From assembly GCA_013812655.1 (NCBI GenBank), contig JACCTC010000410.1, forward strand, positions 1-44,188: a DNA stretch of 44,188 bases, written 5' to 3'. Under the pieces are notes generated by a model that saw only the letters and a list, made by a program, of their open reading frames with translations, was not told the origin of the DNA and ran no database searches. Source of the stretch: Deltaproteobacteria bacterium. Its GTDB lineage: Bacteria; Myxococcota_A; Polyangia; Haliangiales; Haliangiaceae. Within the stretch, counting starts at the first letter, position 1. Each line of letters opens with the position of its first letter. Both the position numbers and the translations under genes were made by a program. Positions 7,968 through 42,572 of the stretch are shown piece after piece.

Positions 7968-8080
7968 TCCATGAGCTTCGCGGATGGCCTCTCTCCTCCG
8001 GTCCAGGGATCCGGCGCAGGCTGGATGTGTGCGGATGGCGGTTTGACAGACCCCAGATCACCCCGGATGATTCAGATCTC

Positions 8081-9781
8081 GTGATTGGCTCGACCGTCGG
8101 CAGCTACCGCATCGTCGGCCAGATCGGCGTCGGTGGCATGGGCGCCGTCTATCGTGCCGAGCACACGCTGATCGGGCGGCTGGCCGCGGTCAAGTTGCTG
8201 CATCCCGAGATGACGGCGAACCGCGACATCGTCGGACGGTTCTTCAACGAGGCGAAGGCGACGACGGCGATCAAGCATCCCGGCATCGTCGAGATCTTCG
8301 ATTTCGGCTACATGCCGAGTGGCCACGCGTACATCGTCATGGAGCTCCTCGACGGGCAACCGCTGACCCAGCGCATGCACGAGCGGCGACGCGTGTCCGA
8401 GGGCGAGGCGGCGATGCTGATGCGCGATGTCTGCAGCGCGCTCGCCGCGGCGCACGCGAAGGGCATCGTCCATCGCGATCTCAAACCCGACAACATCTTC
8501 GTGATCCCCGACGTCGAGCACGGCGAGCGCACCAAGATCCTCGACTTCGGGATCGCGAAGCTCACCGACATCGGCCTCGCTGGGAATGCCACGAAGACCG
8601 GTTCGGTGCTCGGAACGCCGACATACATGTCTCCCGAGCAGTGTCGCGGCAGCGGCGATGTCGATCACCGCGCCGACCTCTACTCGATCGGCTGCATCCT
8701 GTACGAGCTCGTCGCCGGCCGTCCGCCGTTCGTGAACCGCGGAGCCGGCGAGCTGATCGGCTCGCACCTGTTCGTCGACCCCGAGCCGCCGTCGCGGCAT
8801 GTGTCGATCTCGCCGCAGCTCGAGGGGCTGATCATGGCGCTGCTCGCGAAGCAGCCCGAGCAGCGCGTGCAGTCCGCGCGCGAGCTCGGCGGCCTGCTGC
8901 TGCAGATCGCGCAGGCGAACGGGTGGGGCAACGATTTCAGGCACACCTCCGCAGTCCTCGCGGCGACCGAGACCGTGGTCCAGCATCACGCGGTAGCGCG
9001 AGGTCACACGCCTGCGCCCGGGCATCACACGCCCGCGCCGGCGCACCACACGCCCGCGCCGGCGCACCACACGCCCGCGCACGTCGCACCGGGACATCAC
9101 ACGCCAGCACCGGCGCACTTCACGCCGACGCATCACACGCCGGCACATCGCACGCCAGAGCCGCCCCGCCCCCATCACACGCCCGCGCATCTCACGCCGG
9201 AGCCGCAACACCCGCACCACACGCCGGCGCACCTCACGCCAGATCCCGCACGCTTCACACCGTCGCCCGTCGCGCCGGCGATGCCATCGCAAGCGCCACC
9301 TGGTCAACCGACGACGCTATCCGGGATGGCGAGCCAGGCGATGGGTGCGGGCAGCGCGCCGAAGCGGCGCCATGGCATCGTGATCGCGAGCTCCGCGATC
9401 GTCGCGATCGCGATCGGAATCGCGGTGGTCGTCGCGACGACCGGCAAGTCCGCTGACAAGTCGCCCCAGCCAGCGAGCCAGCCCGCCGAGGTTGCACCGT
9501 CTGCGGGATCGACGCCCGAGCCGAGATCGACGCCCGAGCCGAAATCGACGCCCGAGCCGGGCTCGACGCCCGAGCCGACGCCGCCGATCACCAAGCCCGA
9601 GCCGACGGGCACCGCGCCGATCGCAAAGCCCGTCGAGCCCGCCACCGGCTCGGCCGCGAAGCCGGTATTGACCACCGACAAGCCTGCCGTCGACAAGCAG
9701 GTCAAGCCCGCCGACAAGCCGGCGCGCAAGAAGCGGCCGAAGCCGAAGCCCGCTGACGATCTGCTCGAGACCGATCTGTGA
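8081..9781 (+). CDS. Transmembrane Ser/Thr protein kinase with His-Thr-Pro-Ala repeats
   Basis: Hanks-type kinase of 566 residues from GTG 8081; the start VIGSTVGSYRIVGQIG matches the usual first residues of myxobacterial kinases (GTG 8027 is an alternative). The N-terminal catalytic domain has GVGGMGAVY (16-24), the AVK lysine (38), HRDLKPDN (131-138), DFG (155-157) and MSPEQ, so it should be active. A juxtamembrane region (about 306-400) is a repetitive His/Thr/Pro/Ala stretch (HHTPAPA type). One TM follows (432-454), then an outer region with four STPEP repeats and a Lys/Pro-rich tail. The stop overlaps by one base the ATG of the secreted TPR protein downstream, suggesting a functional pair. 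No PASTA repeats are present. Confidence 0.93.
   Translation: MIGSTVGSYRIVGQIGVGGMGAVYRAEHTLIGRLAAVKLLHPEMTANRDIVGRFFNEAKATTAIKHPGIVEIFDFGYMPSGHAYIVMELLDGQPLTQRMHERRRVSEGEAAMLMRDVCSALAAAHAKGIVHRDLKPDNIFVIPDVEHGERTKILDFGIAKLTDIGLAGNATKTGSVLGTPTYMSPEQCRGSGDVDHRADLYSIGCILYELVAGRPPFVNRGAGELIGSHLFVDPEPPSRHVSISPQLEGLIMALLAKQPEQRVQSARELGGLLLQIAQANGWGNDFRHTSAVLAATETVVQHHAVARGHTPAPGHHTPAPAHHTPAPAHHTPAHVAPGHHTPAPAHFTPTHHTPAHRTPEPPRPHHTPAHLTPEPQHPHHTPAHLTPDPARFTPSPVAPAMPSQAPPGQPTTLSGMASQAMGAGSAPKRRHGIVIASSAIVAIAIGIAVVVATTGKSADKSPQPASQPAEVAPSAGSTPEPRSTPEPKSTPEPGSTPEPTPPITKPEPTGTAPIAKPVEPATGSAAKPVLTTDKPAVDKQVKPADKPARKKRPKPKPADDLLETDL
9026..9067 (+). repeat. Two perfect 21-bp tandem repeats inside the His-rich kinase linker
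   Basis: Two identical 21-base units (9026-9046 and 9047-9067) encode HTPAPAH and are followed by a partial third unit. Degenerate copies of the HHTPA coding unit continue over about 9005-9260. The repeat is in frame and codes for the juxtamembrane linker of the kinase, so its copy number could vary without frameshift only in whole units. Confidence 0.9.
9509..9577 (+). repeat. Four 18-bp coding repeats (STPEPx)
   Basis: Four copies of TCGACGCCCGAGCCG with a variable third-position triplet between them encode STPEPR, STPEPK, STPEPG and STPEP in the extracytoplasmic part of the kinase at 8081. This kind of Pro/Glu spacing is typical of stiff linkers through the periplasm or peptidoglycan. Confidence 0.9.
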
Positions 9782-10953: not shown

Positions 10954-12370
<1,417 letters not shown>

Positions 12371-12399
<29 letters not shown>

Positions 12400-12949
12400 G
12401 CTTCTCGCCAGCAGGCTGGCGTCTGCGATGACCGCCGGCGTGCTGGCGTCCGCGCTGACTGCCGGCGTGGTGATGTCGGTGGTAACCGCCGGCGCCTGCA
12501 GCAAGCGGAGCGATGCACCGCCATCGCCGGTGATCGCGAAGTCGCGTGCACTCGCCGACCAGGCGTGCGCCTGCACGACCGTCGCGTGCGCCGATCCGAT
12601 CGATCGCCAGTGGGCCGCGCTGGCGTCCGAGACGAGCGCGAGCCTCGCGGCGGACGATGTTGACGCGATGGCCGAGGAATCCCAGCGCTACCTGCGCTGC
12701 CTGGTCAAGGTGCCGCTCACGCCGGCCGCGCTGCTCGAGCACGCGCGCGCGCTCGCCGATCAGGTGTGTGCGTGTGGCGCCGACGCCGCGTGCGCGCGTC
12801 CGCTGCAGCTGGAGCTCGATCGTCGCCTGCTCTGGACGTTCGCGACCCAGGCGAAGTTCGAGCCGGCGCAGCAGACCGAGCTCTCGCAGCTGCTGCAAAA
12901 CTTCTCGACGTGCGCACTGAAAGCCGGCGTCGAGCCCACACCGAAGTGA
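12371..12949 (+). CDS. Putative lipoprotein with duplicated CxC motif, unknown
   Basis: The 192-residue product overlaps the end of murC. Its N terminus has a basic start (MNRARPLRGE) and a hydrophobic region built of three 9-residue repeats (LASAMTAGV, LASALTAGV, VMSVVTAGA) leading to a lipobox-like AGAC with Cys43. The mature part holds an internal duplication: RALADQACACTTVACADP (59-76) and RALADQVCACGADAACARP (127-145), each with CAC and a third Cys, suggesting a paired disulfide or metal site. The rest is helical and Ala-rich. Later ATGs (12428, 12473) are possible starts. No family was recognised. It sits between murC and murB, with a GTGA overlap to murB if the latter starts at 12946. 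Confidence 0.7.
12416..12496 (+). repeat. Three 27-bp tandem repeats forming a signal-peptide core
   Basis: Three consecutive 27-base units (12416-12442, 12443-12469, 12470-12496) encode LASAMTAGV, LASALTAGV and VMSVVTAGA. The first two differ at three bases; the third is diverged but keeps the ACCGCCGGCG ending. The first starts immediately downstream of the murC stop. Confidence 0.85.
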
Positions 12950-25578: not shown

Positions 25579-27051
<1,473 letters not shown>

Positions 27052-27701: not shown

Positions 27702-28829
27702 ATGAAACCGAAGTTGCTCCTCGTCGATGACCTCCCTGCGAACCTGCTCGCGCTGGAGTCGATCCTCGAGTCGGACTACGACCTGGTTCAGTGCACGTCG
27801 GGCGCTGCGGCGATCGAGGCGGTCGGGCAGCATGCGTTCGTCGTGATCTTGCTCGATGTCAACATGCCGATCATGGATGGGCTCGAGACGGCCCGCAGGA
27901 TCAAGCGGATGCCACGCGGCGGCGCCGTCCCGATCATCTTCATCACCGCGGCCTCGCACGACACCGACCGTGTCCGAGAGGCTTACAAGACCGGCGCGGT
28001 GGACTTCATCTCCAAGCCCGTCGATCGCGATGTCCTCTGCGCCAAGGTCAAGGTGTTCGCCGAGATCCACGTGACACGCGAGCAGCAGCTCGCGCGCGAG
28101 CAGCAGGCGCGCGAGGAGGCCGAGCACCTCGCCGCGCACCTCGAGAATGTCGGCAAGCTGAACGAGGAGTTCGTGGCGTCGCTCGATCGCGAGCTGCGTG
28201 CGCCGCTGAAGACGATGCGCGATACGATCCGCGCCGTGCGCAGCGGCGCCGTCGCCGAGCCGCAGCGAGGTCACCAGCTCGGCGCTGTGGAGCAACATGC
28301 AGACGCGCAGCTCGAGCTGATCGAGGAGATGCTCGATATGAAGAGTGTCGCCGCCGGGACGCTGAAGCTGACTCCGTCCAAGGTGAACCTCGCGACGGTC
28401 GTCGAAGGCGTCGTCACGACACTGCGCCCGCGTGCGATCGCTGCATCGGTCCGGATCGAATTCTCCACGGACCCCGAGCTGAGGCCGATGAGCGGCGATG
28501 CCGAGCGGCTCGCTCAGATCGTGCGCCAGCTCGTCACTGCGGCCGTGCGGGCGTCGTCGGCCGACGGCGTCGTCTCGGTCACCCTCCGACGTTCGGGGTC
28601 GCAGGTGCAGTTGACCGTCGAGCACCGCGGTCCCGGCATCGACGCAGCCATGTTGCCGAAGATCTTCGATGGGTTCGATGACGCGGAGGTTCCCGAGAGC
28701 CTGCGCGGCATGGCACTCAAGCTGGCGATCGTGCGGCACCTCGTCGAGCTTCACCGCGGGACGATCAATGTCGAAGGCGAGGGCCTCGGCAAGGGGACGC
28801 GGTTCGTCGTCGAGCTGCCGGCGGCGTAG
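27702..28829 (+). CDS. Receiver domain fused to a degenerate histidine-kinase module
   Basis: The product is 375 residues from ATG 27702. The receiver (1-120) is intact: LLLVDD (D9, D10), phosphoacceptor D52 in LLDVNMP, T82, K105 in SKPVD. A coiled linker (121-150) leads to a DHp-like helix LNEEFVASLDRELRAPL, where Arg163 stands at the phosphoacceptor His position. The ATPase-like domain keeps the fold but has lost its key residues: N-box Asn to Ala280, G1-box Asp to His308 (EHRGPGI), and G2-box glycines (GMALKL). The kinase module should therefore not phosphorylate. Whether it acts as a dimerising or binding platform is inferred. It ends directly against the stop of the convergent transporter gene. 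Confidence 0.9.
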   Translation: MKPKLLLVDDLPANLLALESILESDYDLVQCTSGAAAIEAVGQHAFVVILLDVNMPIMDGLETARRIKRMPRGGAVPIIFITAASHDTDRVREAYKTGAVDFISKPVDRDVLCAKVKVFAEIHVTREQQLAREQQAREEAEHLAAHLENVGKLNEEFVASLDRELRAPLKTMRDTIRAVRSGAVAEPQRGHQLGAVEQHADAQLELIEEMLDMKSVAAGTLKLTPSKVNLATVVEGVVTTLRPRAIAASVRIEFSTDPELRPMSGDAERLAQIVRQLVTAAVRASSADGVVSVTLRRSGSQVQLTVEHRGPGIDAAMLPKIFDGFDDAEVPESLRGMALKLAIVRHLVELHRGTINVEGEGLGKGTRFVVELPAA

Positions 28830-34184: not shown

Positions 34185-34365
34185 TACTTTCAGCGTAGCG
34201 GATCGGCGTATGATCGTTTCGTGAGGAGCTTCGGCCTGATCGCAGCGAGCGCCCGTCGACCGATGGGCGGTACCTCGCGCGTGGCGATCGTGACAGCGTG
34301 TGCGACCGCGCTCGGATCGATCGCGTGGTTTCGCGCAAGTGCCGCGTCGCGTTGGACCAGCTGAC

Positions 34366-36063
34366 GTGCCCGCGGTGCGCGAGAGCGAGCGCGTGCTCGG
34401 CGTCGTCTACACGCCACCCGAGGTCGCCCGGGCGATGGTCGAGCGCGCGCTCGGGCCGCTCGTGCGTGGCAAGTCGGCGGCGGAGATCCTGGCACTGCGA
34501 GTCTGCGATCCGGCGATCGGCGAGGGCGTATTCCTCGTCGAGGTCGTGCGCGTGCTCGCGGAGCATCTGCATGCGGCGTGGCAGGCAGCCGGCAACCAGC
34601 GCGCGATCGCCGAGGCTCGGCGGGCGGTCGTCCCATGTATTGCTGGCGTCGATATCGATACGCATGCGGTCGTCGCCGCGCGCGGCGTGCTCGGTGATGC
34701 CGACCTCCGCGTCGCGAATGCGCTCGCGCTCGACTGGTCCGCGGCGTGGCCAGCCGTGTTCGCGCGCGGTGGCTTCGACGCGATCGTCGGCAATCCGCCG
34801 TACATCCGGCAGGAGCAGCTCGCCGACAAGGCGGCGCTGCGCGGCTATGCAAGCTACGACGGCGTGGCGGATCTCTACGTGTACTTCGTCGAGCTCGCGC
34901 ACCGGATCGCGCGGCCTGGTGGACGGTATTGCCTGATCACGCCGAACAAGTGGCTGACTGCTGCGTACGGTCGCGGGTTGCGCGAGCTGCTCGCGGCGCG
35001 CGGCAGCGTCGAGGGGATCGTCGATCTCGCACGCACGGCGGTGTTCGCGGATGCCGATGCGTTCCCGAGCATCGTGTGGGGCACGGTCGGCGTGGTAGGC
35101 GCACCGGCGATCCGCGCGACGCGCAGCGAGGCGGACGTCAGCGTGGCCGACGCGCTCGACGAAGCCGGGCTGCCCCATCCTCGGGAGCGCTGGCAGGGCG
35201 ACCCGTGGCACATCGACGTGCCTGCCGATCGCGCGCTGATCGATCGCCTCGAGGCGCGGTGGCCGAGCCTGGGCAGCGTGATCGGCCGGCCGTCGCGCGG
35301 GGTCGTGACCGGGTTCAACCGCGCGTTCGTGATCGATCGCGCGACCCGAGACGCGCTGCTCGCCGCCGAGCCCACCGCCGCGCCGTTGATCCGGCCGTTC
35401 GTGAAGGGGCGCGACGTGCGGCCGTGGTTGCCGGCGCAGGTCGAGCGCTGGATCCTGCTGATCGATCGCGGCACGTCGCTCGAGCCGCTGCCGGCGATCC
35501 GCGCGCACCTCGAGGGCTTTCGCGCGGCGCTCGAACCACGGCCCGCAACCTGGGACGCGGCGACGCGGTGGTCGGGTCGCAAACCTGGCGCGTATCGCTG
35601 GTACGAGCTGCAGGATCCGGTCGGCGAGCTCGCTGCATCACGCGCACCGCGCCTGCTCTACCAGGACATCCAGACCGGACCGGCGTGCTGTCTCGACGAC
35701 ACCGGGCTCGTGCCCGACACGACCGTGTGGATCCTGCCGGGCGGCGAACGCTACTTGCTCGCGGTGCTCAACTCCGCACTGTATGGCTGGTATGCGCGGC
35801 GACGGTTCGCGCCCGCACTCAACGGCGCGGTTCGCCCGAAATTCGAATATCTGCGCGCGCTGCCGATCGCGACGCCGCCGGACGCCACACGCGCTGCGAT
35901 CGCGCAGCTCGTCGATCAACGGCTCGCGCTCGAGGGCGCGCGGCGGCGCGGCGAAGCGGGAACCGATGCGGTAACGCGCGAGCTCGACGCTGCGATCGAC
36001 GACGCCGTGCTCGATAGCTACGAGCTGTCCGCGGCCGAGCGTGCGCGCGTGATCGCCGGCTAA
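34366..36063 (+). CDS. Orphan N6-adenine DNA methyltransferase (Eco57I/TaqI-like)
   Basis: The product is about 565 residues. GTG 34366 is preferred, giving 13 residues before the YTPPEVARAM motif X; GTG 34300 and 34339 are alternatives. Motif I reads CDPAIGEGVFL (the family's DPAcGsGxFL), motif IV NPPYIRQ, followed by LITPNKWL, a part conserved in Eco57I/TaqI-like enzymes. The C-terminal half (about 270-500) is a TaqI-type target-recognition region with RPFVKGRDVRPW and YLLAVLNSALYGWY. No nuclease motif or neighbour restriction gene is seen, so it may be a regulatory or epigenetic methylase. Its stop overlaps the stop of the convergent gene at 36060. Confidence 0.88.
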   Translation: MPAVRESERVLGVVYTPPEVARAMVERALGPLVRGKSAAEILALRVCDPAIGEGVFLVEVVRVLAEHLHAAWQAAGNQRAIAEARRAVVPCIAGVDIDTHAVVAARGVLGDADLRVANALALDWSAAWPAVFARGGFDAIVGNPPYIRQEQLADKAALRGYASYDGVADLYVYFVELAHRIARPGGRYCLITPNKWLTAAYGRGLRELLAARGSVEGIVDLARTAVFADADAFPSIVWGTVGVVGAPAIRATRSEADVSVADALDEAGLPHPRERWQGDPWHIDVPADRALIDRLEARWPSLGSVIGRPSRGVVTGFNRAFVIDRATRDALLAAEPTAAPLIRPFVKGRDVRPWLPAQVERWILLIDRGTSLEPLPAIRAHLEGFRAALEPRPATWDAATRWSGRKPGAYRWYELQDPVGELAASRAPRLLYQDIQTGPACCLDDTGLVPDTTVWILPGGERYLLAVLNSALYGWYARRRFAPALNGAVRPKFEYLRALPIATPPDATRAAIAQLVDQRLALEGARRRGEAGTDAVTRELDAAIDDAVLDSYELSAAERARVIAG

Positions 36064-36749
36064 GCGAGCGGAAGTCGGATCACGATGTGCTGATCAGCGG
36101 TGCAGCGCAGCTCGCCGCCGGCATGGCGGATCGCGAAGGCAGCGAGGGCGAGGTGATCGCCGGCGTGCGCGGGTGGCGGCGAGACGGTCGCGCACGAGAT
36201 CTCGATGCGGCTGTCGGCGAGCGTCGTCTCCAGCGTCAGCGACCGGCCACGACCGGTGCCGGCGGCGACGTCGAAGGCGAGGCCGAGGCCGTGTTGCAAG
36301 AGGCTGAGCGTGACCTCGAGCATCGCGTCGGGAAGCTCGCCGCGGACGACGATGTCGAGGTGGGCGGACGCGTGCTTGATGACGTCGCGGAGCGCGGCGC
36401 GCGAGCGCACGGTAGTTCGTGTCAGGCTCCGGTTCGCGGTGAGGAGCGTGTTGACGTCCCGCAGCGAGGCCTGGGCGGCCTCGGCAGCGCGATCGAGATC
36501 GGGATCGCGCTTGGCTTCGAGGAGCTCGGTCAGCTCGTCAAGCGCCATCATCAGGCCTTGCAGCTTGGACGCGATGTCGTGATTGAACGTGGCAACGCGC
36601 GAGCCGATGGTGGCGAACGCGAGGATGCGATCGAGCGAGGCCGGCTCGTGGACCTCACATGGCTCGTCGAGGTGGCCGAGGTGAACGGTCGGATCGGAAG
36701 CAGGATCGGAGGCGGAACCGGAACGCGGATCGCGTGGCAGATCGCTCAC
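36060..36749 (-). CDS. ChpT-like histidine phosphotransferase / degenerate histidine kinase
   Basis: The 229-residue product starts at GTG 36749, overlapping the previous stop as GTGA. A Pro/Asp-rich N terminus (1-35) precedes a helical hairpin with ATFNHDIASKLQGLMMALDELTELL (53-77); His57 followed by Asp looks like a phosphoacceptor of the DHp type. The C-terminal half (about 120-229) has an HATPase-like order of strands and helices, but without the N-box Asn or the Gly boxes, as in ChpT-type phosphotransferases, which shuttle phosphate but do not bind ATP. It is last in the leftward operon with the kinase and the receiver. This assignment is inferred from pattern only. Confidence 0.7.
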   Translation of the reverse strand: MSDLPRDPRSGSASDPASDPTVHLGHLDEPCEVHEPASLDRILAFATIGSRVATFNHDIASKLQGLMMALDELTELLEAKRDPDLDRAAEAAQASLRDVNTLLTANRSLTRTTVRSRAALRDVIKHASAHLDIVVRGELPDAMLEVTLSLLQHGLGLAFDVAAGTGRGRSLTLETTLADSRIEISCATVSPPPAHAGDHLALAAFAIRHAGGELRCTADQHIVIRLPLA

Positions 36750-37321
36750 GATCGCTCGAGCGCCTCGGTCAGCCCGACGAGGCCGAGCTCGGTGGCCTCA
36801 CCCCACGGGTCATCGGTGACGACGTGGACGTCGGTGGGGAGCCGGTTGACCTGCGAGATGCCGGGATACTCGGCCTCGAGCGCCTTGCGCAGCGCCTCGC
36901 GCCGTTCGCGGCGCTGACGATCGCCAGACAGCGCGAGCAGCTCGCGATTACGCGCGAGGCCGGCGTGGACCGTGCTGCGCAGCAGCTCGTTGTCGAACGG
37001 CTTGTTGAGGAAGCGGAAGATCTCGCCCTGGTTGATGCCGTCGATCGCGGTCTCGAGGCTACGCTTGCCGGTCAACAAGATCCGCGTGGTCTCGGGACGG
37101 ATGCGGCGCGCGTGGCCGGCGAGCTGCGCGCCGGTCATCTCGGGCATGTCGTAGTCGGAGATCAGCACCGCTACCTCGTCGGCTGCGATCCAGCCCAGCG
37201 CCTCGCTCGCGGACAGCGTGGATCGGAGATCGAAGGGCTCGCGCTTGAGGCACCGCACCACGGTGGCGAGCATCGCCTCGTCGTCGTCGACGCAGATCAC
37301 CAGGGGGAGCTTGGTCGTCAT
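36746..37321 (-). CDS. Single-domain response regulator with C-terminal extension (RpfG-type receiver)
   Basis: The 191-residue product starts at ATG 37321, eight bases after the upstream kinase gene. The receiver has acidic DDDE (12-15), phosphoacceptor Asp in LISDYDMPEMTG, Thr in LLTGKRS, and Lys in LNKPFDNE. The helix-strand pattern TRILLTGKRSLETAIDGI with GEIFRFLNKPF is typical of the RpfG-like receivers. A helical and partly acidic tail (130-191) has no known output domain. It could shuttle phosphate to or from the phosphotransferase that follows it. Confidence 0.88.
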   Translation of the reverse strand: MTTKLPLVICVDDDEAMLATVVRCLKREPFDLRSTLSASEALGWIAADEVAVLISDYDMPEMTGAQLAGHARRIRPETTRILLTGKRSLETAIDGINQGEIFRFLNKPFDNELLRSTVHAGLARNRELLALSGDRQRRERREALRKALEAEYPGISQVNRLPTDVHVVTDDPWGEATELGLVGLTEALERS

Positions 37322-37329
37322 AGATCAGC

Positions 37330-38580
37330 TCAGCTCGACAGCCAGCGTCGCCAGCCGCGGCGATCGGTGACACGCTCGATCTCTTCGAGCGCGGCGAGCA
37401 AGGCTCGCATGTTGGGGAACCGCTGTTGCGGGGTCTTCTGCAGGCAGGTGGTGATCGTGTCCGCGAGCTTCGGCGGCAACGGACCATGCGGGCTCTCGAC
37501 CTCGGGGATCGGCGCCTGCAGGTGCTTCATGCAGAGGCTGCGCAGATCGTCGTCGACGTACGGCGGCTGACCGGCGAGCATCTCGAACATCACGGCACCG
37601 AGGCCGTACTGATCCGAGCGCTCCGTCGCCGCCAATCCGCGCAGCTGCTCGGGCGAGATGTAAGCCGGCGTGCCGAGCACGAACTCGGGGTTTTCCTCGT
37701 GCAAGCCTTCGCCGGCGAGCTCGGCGAGGCCGAAGTCGACGAGCTTGACGAGCAGCTCGGTGTCGCCGAGCACGAGCACGTTCGACGACGTGACGTCGGC
37801 ATGGATCACGCCGCGGTCGTGCGCGGCCGCGAGGGCCTGCGCGAGCTGGCGCATGATCGTGACGACCTCCGCGGGCGGCAGGGGCCCACGCGCGACCCGC
37901 GCCGCGAGGCTCTCGCCGTCGAGCAGCTCCATCACGAAGTACGGGCGGCCATCGGGCAGGTAGCCGAAGTCGAAGACGTCGACGATGTTTGGATGGTGCA
38001 CGCGCGCGGCGGTGCGCGCCTCGCGGAGGAAGCGCTCCGCCGCCGTCGGATCGCGACCGAACAGCGTCTCGCGCAGCACTTTGAGCGCGTAGGTCCGGCC
38101 GAGCGCGGCGTGCTCGACCTTGTAGACGGTGCCCATGCCGCCTTCGCCGAGAAACTCGACGACGCGATACTGGCCGACCTTGTCGCCGGCGGTGAGCGCG
38201 GCGAGCTTGGTGACGACGTGGTCACGCGGCCGCATCACCATCAGATCCGCGCGCAGGGCGGCGCCCGGGCGCAGCGTCACGACGACCTCGGCCTCGCGAT
38301 CGCCGGTCTTCACCGGCAGCACGCCCGTCGTCGAGTGCGCCGCCGCGAGATCGAGGTCCGCGAGGAACGCCAGGCGCGCGATCACGGCGGCGCCGATCTG
38401 CGCTTCGATCGGCACCGTGATCAGCACCTCCCTGCCCCGCTCGAGCGTGATGACATACGACTCTTCCGTCAGCGGCATCGGCTCGATGTACACGGCGTCG
38501 GCTTGCGCGCGCACCGCCGCAGCGAGGGCGAGATCGGCGATCCGCGCCGGGTCGTTTCGATGTGATTCGCGGCCGGCCAT
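37330..38580 (-). CDS. GspE/PilB-N-like domain fused to a soluble Ser/Thr kinase
   Basis: The 416-residue product has no TM. Residues about 10-118 resemble the N-terminal domain of type II secretion/type IV pilus ATPases: IADLALAAAVRAQADAVYIEP, VIARLAFLADLDLAAA, with no Walker motif. The kinase domain (130-400) has GEGGMGTVY (145-153), Lys167 (ALK), and DFG (282-284). The catalytic loop reads HADVTSSN (260-267): Asp262 and Asn267 are kept, but Arg and Lys of the usual HRDLKPDN are Ala and Thr. Activity is likely, though regulation by the activation loop should differ. First gene of the leftward operon, 41 bases from the divergent hybrid kinase. The N-domain call is an inference from pattern. 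Confidence 0.85.
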   Translation of the reverse strand: MAGRESHRNDPARIADLALAAAVRAQADAVYIEPMPLTEESYVITLERGREVLITVPIEAQIGAAVIARLAFLADLDLAAAHSTTGVLPVKTGDREAEVVVTLRPGAALRADLMVMRPRDHVVTKLAALTAGDKVGQYRVVEFLGEGGMGTVYKVEHAALGRTYALKVLRETLFGRDPTAAERFLREARTAARVHHPNIVDVFDFGYLPDGRPYFVMELLDGESLAARVARGPLPPAEVVTIMRQLAQALAAAHDRGVIHADVTSSNVLVLGDTELLVKLVDFGLAELAGEGLHEENPEFVLGTPAYISPEQLRGLAATERSDQYGLGAVMFEMLAGQPPYVDDDLRSLCMKHLQAPIPEVESPHGPLPPKLADTITTCLQKTPQQRFPNMRALLAALEEIERVTDRRGWRRWLSS

Positions 38581-38621
38581 GCGTGTGCGTCGCTCGGCGA
38601 CTGCCCTATAGTACCAACAAG
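38581..38621. promoter_or_regulatory. 41-bp divergent intergenic region with -10-like box
   Basis: TATAGT (38607-38612) is a good -10 box for the rightward gene; only nine bases separate it from the ATG at 38622, so the message would have almost no leader. The same DNA reads TACTAT on the other strand (38613-38608), a weaker -10 for the leftward kinase. No good -35 is visible. Both operons of the signalling island must start inside this short region or within the opposite genes. Confidence 0.45.
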
Positions 38622-39740
38622 ATGGACTCGGAGCAGGGCGACGGCGGTGGGGAATCGTCTCCCAACGGCGTTCGTGTCATGATCGTCGACGATGACGAGG
38701 TGATCTGCCGCCAGATGGCCGGTGGACTGTCGAAGGCTGGGTATCAGGTGGTGACGGCTCACGACGGCGAGGGCGCGATCGAGCAGGTCAACGAGACGCC
38801 GCCGGATATCGCGATCGTCGACCTCGAGATGCCGACGAGCGGGCTCGACGTGATCCGCCACCTCCGGGAGCAGTGCGGACCGGCCGTGCACGTCATCGTG
38901 ATGACCGGCCACGATGACGAGGCGAGGCGCAACGCCGCCTTCGACGCTGGCACCAACGACTTCGTGGTCAAGCCGACCGGCCTCTCCGAGCTCAAGCGCC
39001 GGCTCGCCGCGGCAACGCGCCAGGTCCGCGCGTTCGTCGAGGTCCGGCTCGCGAAGGAGGCCGCGGATCGCCGGATGACCTACGGTGCCGAGGCCACCGC
39101 GCTGCTCGCGCACGATCTCAACAATGGCCTGGCCGTCGCGCTGGGCAACATCCAGTACACCGCCGAGACGCTGACCGGCGTCGACGACGATCAGAAGGAC
39201 GCGCTCGCCGCGACCATTCGCTCGCTCCGCCGGATGTCCGGGCTCGTCGCGAACTTCGTCGACATCGCGCGCTTCGAGGACGCCGCGGTCAAGCCGATGG
39301 TCGCGATGGTGAGAGTTGCCAGCGTCCTCGAGTCGGTGCTCGAGGTGAACGCGTCGCTGGTCTCGCGCGGTGCGACCGTCAAGATCGAGTGCGAGTCCGA
39401 GCTCGAAGGGCGGTTCGATGCCGCACTCGTCGAACGCGTGCTGCACAACCTCGTCGGTAATGCCGCACGCTACTGCAACCAGGGCGGCCAGATCGTGGTG
39501 TCTGCGAGCCTGTGGAACGAGGAGGGCAGCATCGAGCTCTCGGTCCTCAACAGCGGCCCGCAGATTCCCGAGAACATCCGCGGCACGCTGTTTGGCAAGT
39601 ACGTGCGTGGCGGCGGCGGCAAGCGTGGCATGGGGCTGTACTTCTGCCGGCTGGTCGCCGAGGCCCATGGTGGGAGAATCGATTACGAGGCCGCACCAGG
39701 CGGTCCGTGCTTCGTGATGCGGTTGCCCGGGCGAGCCTGA
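38622..39740 (+). CDS. REC-HisKA-HATPase hybrid histidine kinase
   Basis: The 372-residue product (ATG 38622) is soluble. The receiver (17-135) has D23-D25, phosphoacceptor D67 in IVDLEMP, T95 and K117 in VVKPTG. The DHp helix carries LLAHDLNNGLAVALGN with His164, the HDLNN variant. The ATPase domain has an intact N-box (HNLVGNAARYC, Asn280), a G1 box with Asn310 in place of Asp (LNSGPQI, seen in some kinases), and a G2 box GKRGMGLYFC. It is probably active, unlike the similar protein at 27702. First of three rightward genes encoding REC proteins. Confidence 0.92.
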   Translation: MDSEQGDGGGESSPNGVRVMIVDDDEVICRQMAGGLSKAGYQVVTAHDGEGAIEQVNETPPDIAIVDLEMPTSGLDVIRHLREQCGPAVHVIVMTGHDDEARRNAAFDAGTNDFVVKPTGLSELKRRLAAATRQVRAFVEVRLAKEAADRRMTYGAEATALLAHDLNNGLAVALGNIQYTAETLTGVDDDQKDALAATIRSLRRMSGLVANFVDIARFEDAAVKPMVAMVRVASVLESVLEVNASLVSRGATVKIECESELEGRFDAALVERVLHNLVGNAARYCNQGGQIVVSASLWNEEGSIELSVLNSGPQIPENIRGTLFGKYVRGGGGKRGMGLYFCRLVAEAHGGRIDYEAAPGGPCFVMRLPGRA

Positions 39741-39768
39741 ACCGCCGACGATCTGCGGTAAGGTACTC

Positions 39769-40161
39769 GTGGTGACGCACGAGATCCTGATCTGCGACGA
39801 CGATCCAGATATCCGCAGTGCGATGAAGCGTACGCTGCGCGGCTATCGCGTGACCGAGTCGACCTCGCCGCGCGAGGCAATCGACGTGCTCAAGCTGCAG
39901 GCGTTCGACGCCATCGTCTCGGACTTCTCGCTCGAGGCCGAGAGCGATGGCCTCGATCTGTTGCAGCACGTGCGTGTCGCGTATCCGCACATGGTGCGCT
40001 TCCTGGTCACCGGCAATCGCGAGCTCGAGGTCGCGGCGCGGGCGATCAACGAAGGCTCGGTGCATCGATACTTCGCGAAGCCGTGGGACGACGAGAAGCT
40101 ACGGGCTGCACTCGAGATCTTGCTGCGGTCACGACGTCAGGCGGACGAGGACGGGGGGTGA
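39769..40161 (+). CDS. Single-domain response regulator (RpfG-type receiver)
   Basis: The 130-residue product starts at GTG 39769 (GTG 39772 is the next codon) with TAAGG five bases before. Acidic DDDPD (10-14), phosphoacceptor Asp in IVSDFSL, Thr in LVTGNRE, and Lys in FAKPWDD. The family pattern MVRFLVTGNRELEVAARAI with SVHRYFAKPW is shared with the receiver at 36746. There is no output domain, so it should act through protein contacts or phosphate transfer. It lies 28 bases after the hybrid kinase and one base before the REC-EAL gene. Confidence 0.9.
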   Translation: MVTHEILICDDDPDIRSAMKRTLRGYRVTESTSPREAIDVLKLQAFDAIVSDFSLEAESDGLDLLQHVRVAYPHMVRFLVTGNRELEVAARAINEGSVHRYFAKPWDDEKLRAALEILLRSRRQADEDGG

Positions 40162-40162
40162 G

Positions 40163-41344
40163 ATGACGGGCGGCGGCGGCGGGAAACCAGGACATCTCGG
40201 ACGCGTGCTCGTCGTCGACGATGATCTCGGGATGCGCAAGGCATGCACCCGGATGCTGAGCACGGAGGGCTGGGTCGTCGTGTCCGCCGAGCATGGTCGC
40301 GCCGGGGTCGATGCGATGCGCGACGGCCGCGAGCAGTTCGATTGCGTGGTGTCTGACGTGCACATGCCCGAGCTCGACGGGTTCGGGCTGATCCGCGAAA
40401 TTCGCCAGCTCGATGACGATCTGCCGGTGCTGCTGATGACCGGCGACCCGACGCTCGACGGCGCCGTTCGCGCGATCGACAACGGCGCGGTCTCGTACAT
40501 CGTCAAGCCGTTCGATCAGGAGACGCTGGCATCCGCGGTCGCTCGCGCCGCGCGCCGCCACGGGATCGCACGGATGCGGCGGCGCGCCGAGACCTTCGCG
40601 CGCGAGATGCTCGGGCCCCAGGAGGGCGATCACAAGGTGACCGAGCAATGCTTCGAGCGCGCACTCGAGCGCTCGTGGATGGCCTACCAGCCGATCGTCG
40701 ACTATCGAACCCGCACCGTCTACGCGTACGAAGCGCTGGTGCGCACCGACGAGGAATCGCTGCGCCGCGCCGACGTGCTGATCGCGACCGCCGAGCGACT
40801 CGCGCGCATTCACGACCTCGGCCGCACCGTCCGCCGTCACGTCGCGGCGATGGCGGCGAACATTCCCGACAGCGCGCTCTTGTTCGTGAACGTCCACGGG
40901 CTCGAGCTGACCGACGAGGAGCTGTTCGCGGAACAGGGTCCATTCGCCGCGCTGTCATCGCGGATCGTCCTCGAGATCACCGAGCGGATCGGGCTCGATA
41001 CGGTTGCCGGTCCGTCACGAGTCGCGATGTTGCGGCGGCTCGGCTATCGGATCGCGGTCGATGATCTCGGCGCGGGATATGCCGCGCTCGGCGCGCTCGC
41101 CACGCTCGAGCCCGACGTCGTCAAGCTCGACATGGGCCTCGTCCGTGATCTCGACCGTCACCACACCAAACGTCGCGTGGTCGGTGCGATCGCGACCCTC
41201 GTTCGCGAGCTCGGCGGGCGCGTGGTCGCCGAGGGTGTCGAGACGCCCGCCGAACGCGATGCGTGCCTCGCTGCCGGAATCGACCTCTTGCAGGGCTACC
41301 TGTTCGCCAAGCCGACCCGCGAGATCGTCGTCCCGACGTTCTGA
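40163..41344 (+). CDS. REC-EAL cyclic-di-GMP phosphodiesterase
   Basis: The 393-residue product starts at ATG 40163, right after the previous stop, with a G-rich ribosome region. The receiver (14-130) has DDD, phosphoacceptor Asp in VVSDVHMPELDG, T in LLMTGDP and K in IVKPFDQ. The EAL domain (about 155-393) keeps the residues needed to hydrolyse c-di-GMP: YEALVR, LFVNV (Asn), LEITE, DDLGAGYAAL (both Asp), VVKLD (Lys), VVAEGVE and QGYLFAKP. It should turn phosphorelay input into lower c-di-GMP. Last gene of the rightward operon; its stop lies in a short duplication (CGTTCTGAGACGA at 41337-41349 and 41354-41366). Confidence 0.93.
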   Translation: MTGGGGGKPGHLGRVLVVDDDLGMRKACTRMLSTEGWVVVSAEHGRAGVDAMRDGREQFDCVVSDVHMPELDGFGLIREIRQLDDDLPVLLMTGDPTLDGAVRAIDNGAVSYIVKPFDQETLASAVARAARRHGIARMRRRAETFAREMLGPQEGDHKVTEQCFERALERSWMAYQPIVDYRTRTVYAYEALVRTDEESLRRADVLIATAERLARIHDLGRTVRRHVAAMAANIPDSALLFVNVHGLELTDEELFAEQGPFAALSSRIVLEITERIGLDTVAGPSRVAMLRRLGYRIAVDDLGAGYAALGALATLEPDVVKLDMGLVRDLDRHHTKRRVVGAIATLVRELGGRVVAEGVETPAERDACLAAGIDLLQGYLFAKPTREIVVPTF

Positions 41345-41493: not shown

Positions 41494-41994
41494 ATGACCA
41501 CTGCATCTGCTTCTCAAAACACCAAGCTCTCGTCCCACACCGTCTGGCTGTTCGCGCTCGGCTCGACCGTGGCCGGCATCGGCGCGTCCTATGCCGCCGC
41601 CGGATTCGGCCAGAAGGCCGCCGCCGCCGTGTACTTCGCCGCCGTCGCGATCGGTGGGTTCGGCTCGACGTACCTGACGCGCGCACGCGTCCGCGGTGCC
41701 GTCGTCGCGTTCCTCAGCGTCGCCGTGGTCGCCGCGGTCGTGTACTTCATGCTCGTCGATCAGATGTTCCGCACCGCGACGACCGCGATGACCGACGTCG
41801 CATCCGGTGGCGCGGCGCATCAGCAGGGTGTCGAGGCCGGCGCCACGTTCGGCAAGATGTTCGGCATCATCGTCGCCGCCGTCGTGTTCCTCGAGACCAT
41901 CATCGCGGGCATCGGCGGCGCGATCGCCGGCAGCAAGGTTCGCGAGAAGGGTGGCATCACCGCGCTCGGCGCGATGGGCCGCGCGGCGAGCTAG
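41494..41994 (+). CDS. Small four-TM membrane protein, unknown
   Basis: The 166-residue product starts at ATG 41494 (MTTASASQNTKLSSHT); an earlier in-frame start would overlap the palindromic control region. Hydrophobic segments are at about 15-38 (WLFALGSTVAGIGASYAAAGFG), 43-58, 67-88 (AVVAFLSVAVVAAVVYFMLV) and 124-146 (FGIIVAAVVFLETIIAGIGGAIAG). The loop between the third and fourth is Thr/Ala/Gly-rich. No family was recognised. The stop codon overlaps the stop of the convergent NUDIX gene by four bases. Confidence 0.75.
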   Translation: MTTASASQNTKLSSHTVWLFALGSTVAGIGASYAAAGFGQKAAAAVYFAAVAIGGFGSTYLTRARVRGAVVAFLSVAVVAAVVYFMLVDQMFRTATTAMTDVASGGAAHQQGVEAGATFGKMFGIIVAAVVFLETIIAGIGGAIAGSKVREKGGITALGAMGRAAS

Positions 41995-42572
41995 CCGACC
42001 GACGCCGCTGGCGCGCGACCGACCGCGATCAGATCGCCGAGGATCCGCCAGGTCAGGCCCCAGATCACGTGGCCGGCATAGCTCCACGCCGGGAACGTCA
42101 TCTCGGCGGTCGGGTACTTGTAGGTATCGTCGATCGCGCCACTCGCCGCGAGCTCGAGCGGCAACCAGAACGCGGCGAGCGCCTCGGGACCGCAGACCGG
42201 CTCGAGCGCCATCGTCGTGTGAAACACGAACGGCGTGACCTCGATGCCATTGGGGCCCGAGGTTCGCGGATGCAGCGCTGGCAGGTTGCCGAGGTAGCGC
42301 GCGCCTGCGAGCTCGATGCCGAGCTCCTCGTGAGTCTCGCGGATCGCGGTCGCCAGCATGTCGGCGTCGCCGTCCTGATAGCCACCGCCGGGCAGCGAGA
42401 TGTGACCGGACCACGGATCGCCCTCGCGCTCGGCGCGCTTCATCAGCAGCACGCGTGGGCCCGCGGGTTCGTCGTCGAGCACGCACGCGACCGCCGCGCA
42501 CCGCCCCGTCAGCTTCAGAGGCACGGGAGCCGGCGCGAGGTGCTTCGCGATCCGTTCGAGGAGCTCCGACAC
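41991..42572 (-). CDS. NUDIX hydrolase, CoA pyrophosphatase-like (NudL type)
   Basis: The 193-residue product starts at GTG 42572. The NUDIX box reads GGGYQDGDADMLATAIRETHEELGI, with RETHEELG intact and the shortened GG...DAD front that CoA-hydrolase (NudL-like) members have. Upstream AAVACVLDDEPAGPRVLLMKRAEREGDPWSGHISLPGG matches the CoA-type signature LLxKRA...GxISLPGG. The expected reaction is cleavage of CoA or related dinucleoside diphosphates. The C-terminal helix and WGLTWRILGDLIAV complete the fold. Confidence 0.88.
   Translation of the reverse strand: MSELLERIAKHLAPAPVPLKLTGRCAAVACVLDDEPAGPRVLLMKRAEREGDPWSGHISLPGGGYQDGDADMLATAIRETHEELGIELAGARYLGNLPALHPRTSGPNGIEVTPFVFHTTMALEPVCGPEALAAFWLPLELAASGAIDDTYKYPTAEMTFPAWSYAGHVIWGLTWRILGDLIAVGRAPAASVG

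Follow-up and report, generated by a model that had tools for sequence, protein, structure and literature searches.

Organization of the island

The window analysed here is the entire 44,188-base contig JACCTC010000410.1 of a Deltaproteobacteria bacterium, whose genome assembly comprises 8.1 Mb in 508 contigs. It carries an island of six signalling genes, P1 to P6, arranged as two divergent arms, with P1–P2–P3 reading leftward and P4–P5–P6 rightward. There is a 4-bp overlap between P1 and P2 and a 1-bp gap between P5 and P6. The features of the island are as follows.

36060–36749, minus strand: P1, pseudo-histidine-kinase (DHp plus degenerate CA domain), candidate histidine phosphotransferase; candidate phospho-His H57
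36746–37321, minus strand: P2, receiver and probable partner of P3, its C-terminal tail conserved (LExEYPGI-like); Pfam REC
37330–38580, minus strand: P3, PilB/GspE N2-like domain (about residues 1–116) and Ser/Thr kinase (136–390)
38581–38621, no strand: divergent gap, 41 bp, with a TATAGT-like element before P4
38622–39740, plus strand: P4, REC-HisKA-HATPase_c histidine kinase, H164, REC D67; Pfam
39769–40161, plus strand: P5, single receiver, D52; Pfam REC
40163–41344, plus strand: P6, REC-EAL, predicted cyclic di-GMP (c-di-GMP) phosphodiesterase and output; Pfam EAL, E 9e-49

The first-pass annotation of this DNA, made from the letters alone, had described two divergent three-gene operons 41 bp apart, and the open reading frames lie where it placed them. 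Pfam agrees with its assignment of P4 as a REC-HisKA-HATPase kinase, P6 as a REC-EAL protein, and P2 and P5 as single receivers, giving four receivers and one intact-looking histidine kinase over the six proteins, with the key residues in place. It had also pointed to the lack of a DNA-binding output, and Pfam finds no DNA-binding domain among the six island proteins; sigma-54 activator queries against the whole window match receiver parts only. The conserved EAL residues of P6 are consistent with c-di-GMP hydrolysis as the sole visible output, as had been proposed. A short AT-rich, TATAGT-like element lies just 5′ of the P4 start in all seven P4-bearing islands, as compared by eye, and may represent a putative −10 box.

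Conservation across the genus

Islands of this type occur in 12 of the 16 genomes of the genus with synteny kept, and the six genes are therefore clustered beyond chance. G005 and G011 carry only the flagellum-linked type described below, and G009 and G013 carry neither (G013 is 59% complete). P3 is found in all 12 islands, in two frames in G015, as is P2, which is shortened in G007. P1 is present in 10, P4 in 7, and P6 in 10 at an identity of at least 65%; in G008 the island is instead flanked by an EAL protein of 41% identity, and G007 has none. P2 to P4 are 62–78% identical across islands, with one P3 fragment at 86%. The co-occurrence that the first-pass annotation had put forward as a check is thus borne out for the cluster, but all six genes stand together in only 5 of the 12 islands (G000, G001, G006, G010, and G012). 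Its term “hub” is too strong, since the six do not form an obligate set: P4 is missing from five islands and P5 from six.

P1 resembles a former histidine kinase

P1 has no Pfam match above the cut-off. Among 95 relatives including G000, a P1 search matched 16, and matches are strong only in G000 and nine others, which make up 10 of the 16 genus genomes. In named records, the P1 loci belong to metagenome-assembled genomes (MAGs) titled Kofleriaceae (three), Deltaproteobacteria (five), and Myxococcales (one) bacterium; the tenth, Prauserella, is weak (E 2e-4). The weak distant matches are proteins of ~470 residues with REC and HATPase_c domains (Pfam, two checked, with no HisKA match at E 0.01). 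Flagellar rod genes adjoin eight of the nine P1-like REC kinases, the exception being locus L037 in G002; Pfam verified one of two such rod-gene calls in L030 and both in L036, and the other six loci were judged by eye.

Aligned with hhalign, P1 matches the profile of the nine rod-gene-linked REC-HATPase kinases over 195 columns with a probability of 99.0 and an E value of 2.7e-18. The corresponding comparison with P4 gives 71.8 and 3.5e-5, and the control comparison with P3 gives 0.3 and 0.18. Judged by these profiles, the kinship of P1 with a receiver-histidine kinase encoded beside flagellar rod genes spans the entire DHp-CA region. A derivation of P1 from P4 was rejected, as the rod-gene-linked kinase fits far better.

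In a joint alignment, the His-Asp pair (H57–D58 in the window copy) is kept in all nine P1 sequences and all nine kinases, and a Gln at H+7 is kept in all nine P1 sequences. The ATP site has fared differently in the two groups: the N-box Asn occurs in none of the nine P1 sequences versus seven of the nine kinases, the G1 Asp in none versus eight, the lid Phe in none versus nine, and the last G2 Gly in none versus eight. One G1 Gly position, in a gapped part of the alignment, is Gly in two of the nine P1 sequences. Two frame pieces from G006 were excluded from both P1 alignments (A1 and A3); A3 also omits L114, which is split, and L116, the weak match from Prauserella, and thus draws on 8 of the 10 loci plus the window. 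From these residues, P1 looks like a former histidine kinase that has lost ATP binding and kept its phospho-acceptor: a DHp domain with the candidate phospho-His is joined to a degenerated CA domain of histidine-kinase descent, in which the first G2 Gly persists in six of the nine copies. The ChpT-like phosphotransferase suggested by the first-pass annotation survives as a histidine-kinase-derived pseudokinase with a His-Asp pair, but not as a recognized family member, as the ChpT family profile HPTransfase (PF10090) is not among the nine families matched by nine P1 members at E 1. On balance, we moderately favor a phosphotransferase role for P1.

The N-box Asn and the first G2 Gly are missing even from two of the nine P1-like REC kinases (L030 10438–11841 and L035 7476–8888), and this family may therefore have lost ATP binding on more than one occasion. 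A CxxH motif, possibly related to metal or redox chemistry, lies near the N-terminus of P1 in eight of the nine aligned copies.

The P3–P2 pair

Pfam places a Pkinase domain at residues 138–389 of P3 (E 9.3e-45). The GEGGMG loop, Lys167, Asp262, and the DFG motif are present, and Lys167, Asp262, and D282-F-G are invariant among 22 aligned sequences. The catalytic loop reads HADVTSSN, not HRDLKxxN; similar loops occur in RIO and Bud32, which are active kinases. We considered and rejected a dead kinase on account of this loop, given that the P-loop, Lys167, Asp262, Asn267, and DFG are all kept.

In hmmsearch, the N-terminal profile of P3 matches PilB residues 197–288 (5zfr, E 6.5e-5; also 6olj, 5tsg, and 3jc8), a region we take to be the N2 domain, MshEN presumably being N1. 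No T2SSE_N Pfam family is matched by the P3 N-terminus at E 1. The GspE-N-like domain of the first-pass annotation is accordingly retained as a PilB-family match, but the region concerned is not MshEN, and a role for P3 as a c-di-GMP receptor through MshEN was rejected on this basis. P3 has the N2-like part of a PilB/GspE ATPase with a Ser/Thr kinase instead of the Walker-type ATPase.

The phospho-acceptor of P2 is Asp56, and its C-terminal tail is conserved among 26 aligned sequences. The loci fetched contain 41 P3-type matches, and P2 lies directly downstream on the same strand in 38 of them; one kinase (G024) is counted twice through the overlapping loci L081 and L082. The other three are L102, which has a P2-like gene upstream, and L074 1368–2183 and window 8003–8926, which match the kinase part of P3 without an N2 match. 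In a search with the P3 N-terminus, 31 of 144 genomes gave a match, among them 14 of the 16 in the genus; across the phylum the N2 profile matches 16 of 377 sampled genomes, all of the same class. Seven more loci come from these 16 genomes. In L121 to L125 a P2-type receiver comes after the kinase, succeeded immediately in L121, L122, and L125, and beyond a small gene in L124, by a HisKA-HATPase-REC protein (Pfam). The frame of L127 is broken, again with a P2-type match downstream; L126 lacks a P3 match. A partnership between P3 and P2 is, in our judgement, quite probable, and the recurrent pair offers a compact test system for convergence between Ser/Thr kinases and phosphorelays.

Two stretches of the window, 8003–8926 and 26251–26943, match the P3 kinase part at 39% and 44%, respectively. 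L121 and L122 come from genomes of one or two contigs in another family and carry an operon of N2-Ser/Thr kinase, receiver, and histidine kinase, for which this lineage may provide a culturable model.

The rightward arm

In P4, His164, Asn276, Asn280, Gly312, Gly336, Gly338, Asp67, and Lys117 are invariant among 12 aligned sequences. Relatives of P4 occur in 13 of the 16 genus genomes. Four of the genomes with P4-less islands (G002, G003, G004, and G008) carry a 55–56% relative elsewhere, and G007 carries none; the off-island relatives of G003 and G004 adjoin a sigma-54 activator, and that of G002 adjoins a relative of the P1-like REC kinase. P5 relatives are found in seven genus genomes and in six of the 12 islands. 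P6 has its receiver Asp at position 65 and its EAL motif from residue 190. On alignment to solved EAL domains, Glu190, Asn243, Glu271, Asp300, Asp301, Lys321, Glu357, and Gln377 prove invariant in all 10 island copies, together with REC Asp65 and Lys115. P6 thus has the makeup of a REC-EAL phosphodiesterase, a receiver followed by an EAL domain with its predicted catalytic residues.

Flagellum-linked relatives and possible origin of the island

Relatives of P2 and P3 also sit in loci that we group as flagellum-linked (15 in all: L071 to L083, L088, and L097, of which L081 and L082 overlap); they belong either to other genera of the family or to some genus genomes in which they form a second copy. 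All 15 contain an NtrC-type activator match, but the 11 island loci from relatives show no such match. P4 is divergent to P3 in 13 of the 15 (L077 has no P4, and P3 is cut in L082), P5 occurs in 8, FliL in 9, MotA in 4, and one or other of FliL and MotA in 10. In L097, Pfam confirms NtrC-type and REC-less sigma-54 activators together with MotA, MotB, HDOD, and FliL; activators are likewise confirmed in L071, L073, and L083. As classified by sequence, P2 to P5 belong to families whose relatives sit with sigma-54 activators, often beside flagellar genes. In L071 of G011, a REC-EAL gene (11132–12562) adjoins P2 within the flagellum-linked module, a possible intermediate arrangement.

In a P3 tree of 37 rows, the island sequences form a clade of 11 rows with 100/100 support, sister at 96/93 to the flagellum-linked and pair-only rows of the genus. 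The other flagellum-linked rows fall outside, so that in the midpoint-drawn tree the island clade lies inside the flagellum-linked radiation. The 12 islands yield 11 rows as the two-frame P3 of G015 is below the length limit; the L094 row has a stop shown as X. A P4 tree of 28 rows, in which G024 is present twice, recovers the seven island sequences as a clade at 100/100. Both trees are midpoint-rooted for drawing. Since distant P3–P2 pairs fall outside, we read the island as derived from the flagellum-linked module. Its parts are largely kin of flagellar-cluster regulators that neighbor sigma-54 activators, and the missing DNA-binding output therefore looks like a replacement: the island has no sigma-54 outputs and carries a REC-EAL protein in their place.

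Rod genes (PF00460) occur in seven of the 16 genus genomes (G001, G005, G008, G010, G011, G014, and G015), not including G000. Among the 12 island genomes, they are present in five and were not seen in seven, the window's genome among them (G000, G002, G003, G004, G006, G007, and G012); this absence is likely but not certain, because the MAGs are incomplete (G000 93.5%, G002 73%, and the other five 86–96%). A full-length FlhA match of 655 positions is found in G001, G005, G008, G011, and G014. G000 has an N-half match only (1–291), resembling the N-halves of second FlhA copies elsewhere, which probably belong to type III secretion. FliM (PF02154) had no match in any of the 16 genus genomes, the seven with rod genes included, and the flagellar markers used were therefore the rod genes and FlhA; in those seven genomes the FliM rotor protein may be very divergent. 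The possibility that the island is tied to flagella was rejected, given the seven island genomes in which rod genes were not seen.

A proposed circuit and its alternatives

These observations suggest a relay in which P4 would autophosphorylate at His164 and phosphorylate receivers, serving as the phosphate source, and P1 would carry phosphate between receivers in the manner of ChpT, Spo0B, or PhyT. P2 would serve P3 as its dedicated receiver, with the conserved P2 tail as the docking site, and phosphorylation on Ser/Thr and on Asp could thus converge on P2. Phosphorylation of P6 would set its c-di-GMP hydrolysis, up or down, with P5 as an optional shuttle or sink, and the N2 domain of P3 may dock on a PilB-type ATPase ring. 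That the gene products form one connected relay ending in P6 strikes us as an even proposition, and we put similar trust in the view that a flagellar regulatory circuit was duplicated, relocated, and rewired to give the island, with c-di-GMP hydrolysis taking over from sigma-54 outputs. A fuller version is tentative and rather doubtful: an exapted flagellar circuit, in some hosts without flagella, in which a PilB-N2 Ser/Thr kinase couples the state of the pilus motor to c-di-GMP through a dedicated receiver, a pseudokinase descends from a second flagellar kinase, and the signals merge on the 191-residue P2. If correct, these proposals would mean that a regulatory circuit can outlive its machine through output swapping, and that a ChpT-like phosphotransferase evolved independently, its active relatives still lying beside flagellar rod genes in related genomes.

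Several observations weigh against this reconstruction. P1 is recognized by no family in searches of Pfam and the PDB, is the fastest-evolving island member (32–40% identical to the window copy), is split between frames in G006, and is absent from G003 and G007; it is also retained in three P4-less islands (G002, G004, and G008), and its remaining first G2 Gly speaks against complete loss of the ATP site. The islands missing P4 or P5 count here too, those without P4 against an obligate hub. As to origin, 5 of the 15 flagellum-linked loci have neither FliL nor MotA in the fetched stretch, and the P4 island clade sits in an unresolved fork, its nesting in the flagellum-linked clade not being supported. 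G010 and others hold both the island and the flagellar copy, so the island is not a simple replacement of that copy. The kinship traced by sequence covers P1 to P5, and P6 is at most of possible flagellar origin.

The uneven retention of genes could instead reflect two back-to-back units, P3–P2 (with P1) and P4–P5–P6, the latter controlling c-di-GMP, that share a divergent promoter region and exchange no phosphate. P3–P2 is indeed the sole pair in all 12 islands and occurs also without P4 nearby, and P5 is also missing from four of the five P4-less islands. We nevertheless think this arrangement unlikely: P4 is divergent to P3–P2 in all seven P4-bearing islands and in 13 of the 15 flagellum-linked loci, P6 persists where both P4 and P5 are absent (islands L023 and L024), and P5 is missing from two islands that keep P4 (G014 and G015). 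The lost ATP-binding residues of P1, its fast divergence, and its persistence in the three P4-less islands would also suit a pseudokinase regulator that binds P2 or dimerizes with a kinase to block or sequester it, or that acts as a phosphatase; the His, Asp, and Gln at H+7 kept in all nine copies would be needless for pure binding, and this role seems to us unlikely as well. Patchy gene loss, the split P1 and P3 genes of G006 and G015, the shortened P2 of G007, and the seven island genomes without visible rod genes might even indicate a decaying relic of flagellar regulation in species without flagella. That is highly improbable: P3, P4, and P6 have conserved catalytic residues, P2 to P4 hold at 62–78% identity, and the island is also retained in five genomes that do have rod genes.

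Neighboring genes

Two recurrent genes border the island.

34300–36063, plus strand: Eco57I-like methyltransferase, recurrent island border; Pfam
41991–42572, minus strand: NUDIX gene, recurrent island border; Pfam

The methyltransferase adjoins the island in most relatives' loci and was not seen in L021. Of the 11 island loci fetched from relatives, some of them cut short, 7 contain the NUDIX gene. Elsewhere in the window, 27717–28052 encodes one more receiver domain.

Comparison with known systems

Our literature search, whose coverage was partial and is no proof of absence, found no published account of such an island. Flagellar two-component systems of the FlrBC/FleSR/FlgSR type are natural points of comparison: like them, the relatives of P4 adjoin NtrC-type activators, in many loci together with flagellar genes. 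P4 differs from them in its N-terminal REC domain, and the island has neither activator nor flagellar genes. Ser/Thr kinase control of a response regulator is reportedly exerted by PrkC on WalRK, and Chao et al. in 2010 are said to have described Ser/Thr kinase control of response regulators in M. tuberculosis (references in PMC6213207). The island would similarly have a Ser/Thr kinase converging on a response regulator; here the kinase and receiver form a recurrent adjacent gene pair, in apparent contrast to the gene arrangements in those cases. Spo0B of Bacillus is a dimeric pseudokinase phosphotransferase to which P1 may be likened, but P1 had no sequence match to it in the PDB search, and the outputs of the two systems differ.

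In the sections of the literature consulted, Spo0B, ChpT, and PhyT are described as histidine-kinase-like proteins in which ATP binding was lost and the phospho-acceptor kept (PMC5898713, PMC9981736), and merging of Ser/Thr and His-Asp phosphorylation on one receiver is a relay type that we did not find described there. In the available part of one account, the PhyT–SdrG–PhyR system of Sphingomonas, like the relay proposed for the island, employs a degenerated histidine kinase to transfer phosphate between a single-domain receiver and an output regulator; PhyT, however, has a predicted membrane anchor, an HRxxN motif, and a putative sensor domain, whereas the motif of P1 is HDxASxxQ and no sensor domain is recognized in it. 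The Sphingomonas system acts on the general stress response, the island on c-di-GMP (PMC5898713). As far as the excerpts of a second account extend, the CckA–ChpT–CtrA/CpdR relay of Caulobacter shares with the island a histidine kinase, a pseudo-histidine-kinase phosphotransferase, for which P1 is the island's candidate, and a Rec-only protein; the Rec domain of CckA is C-terminal and CtrA binds DNA, whereas the REC domain of P4 is N-terminal and the output is an EAL enzyme (PMC9981736). Within those same excerpts, the island alone of the two pairs a Ser/Thr kinase with a receiver (PMC9981736).

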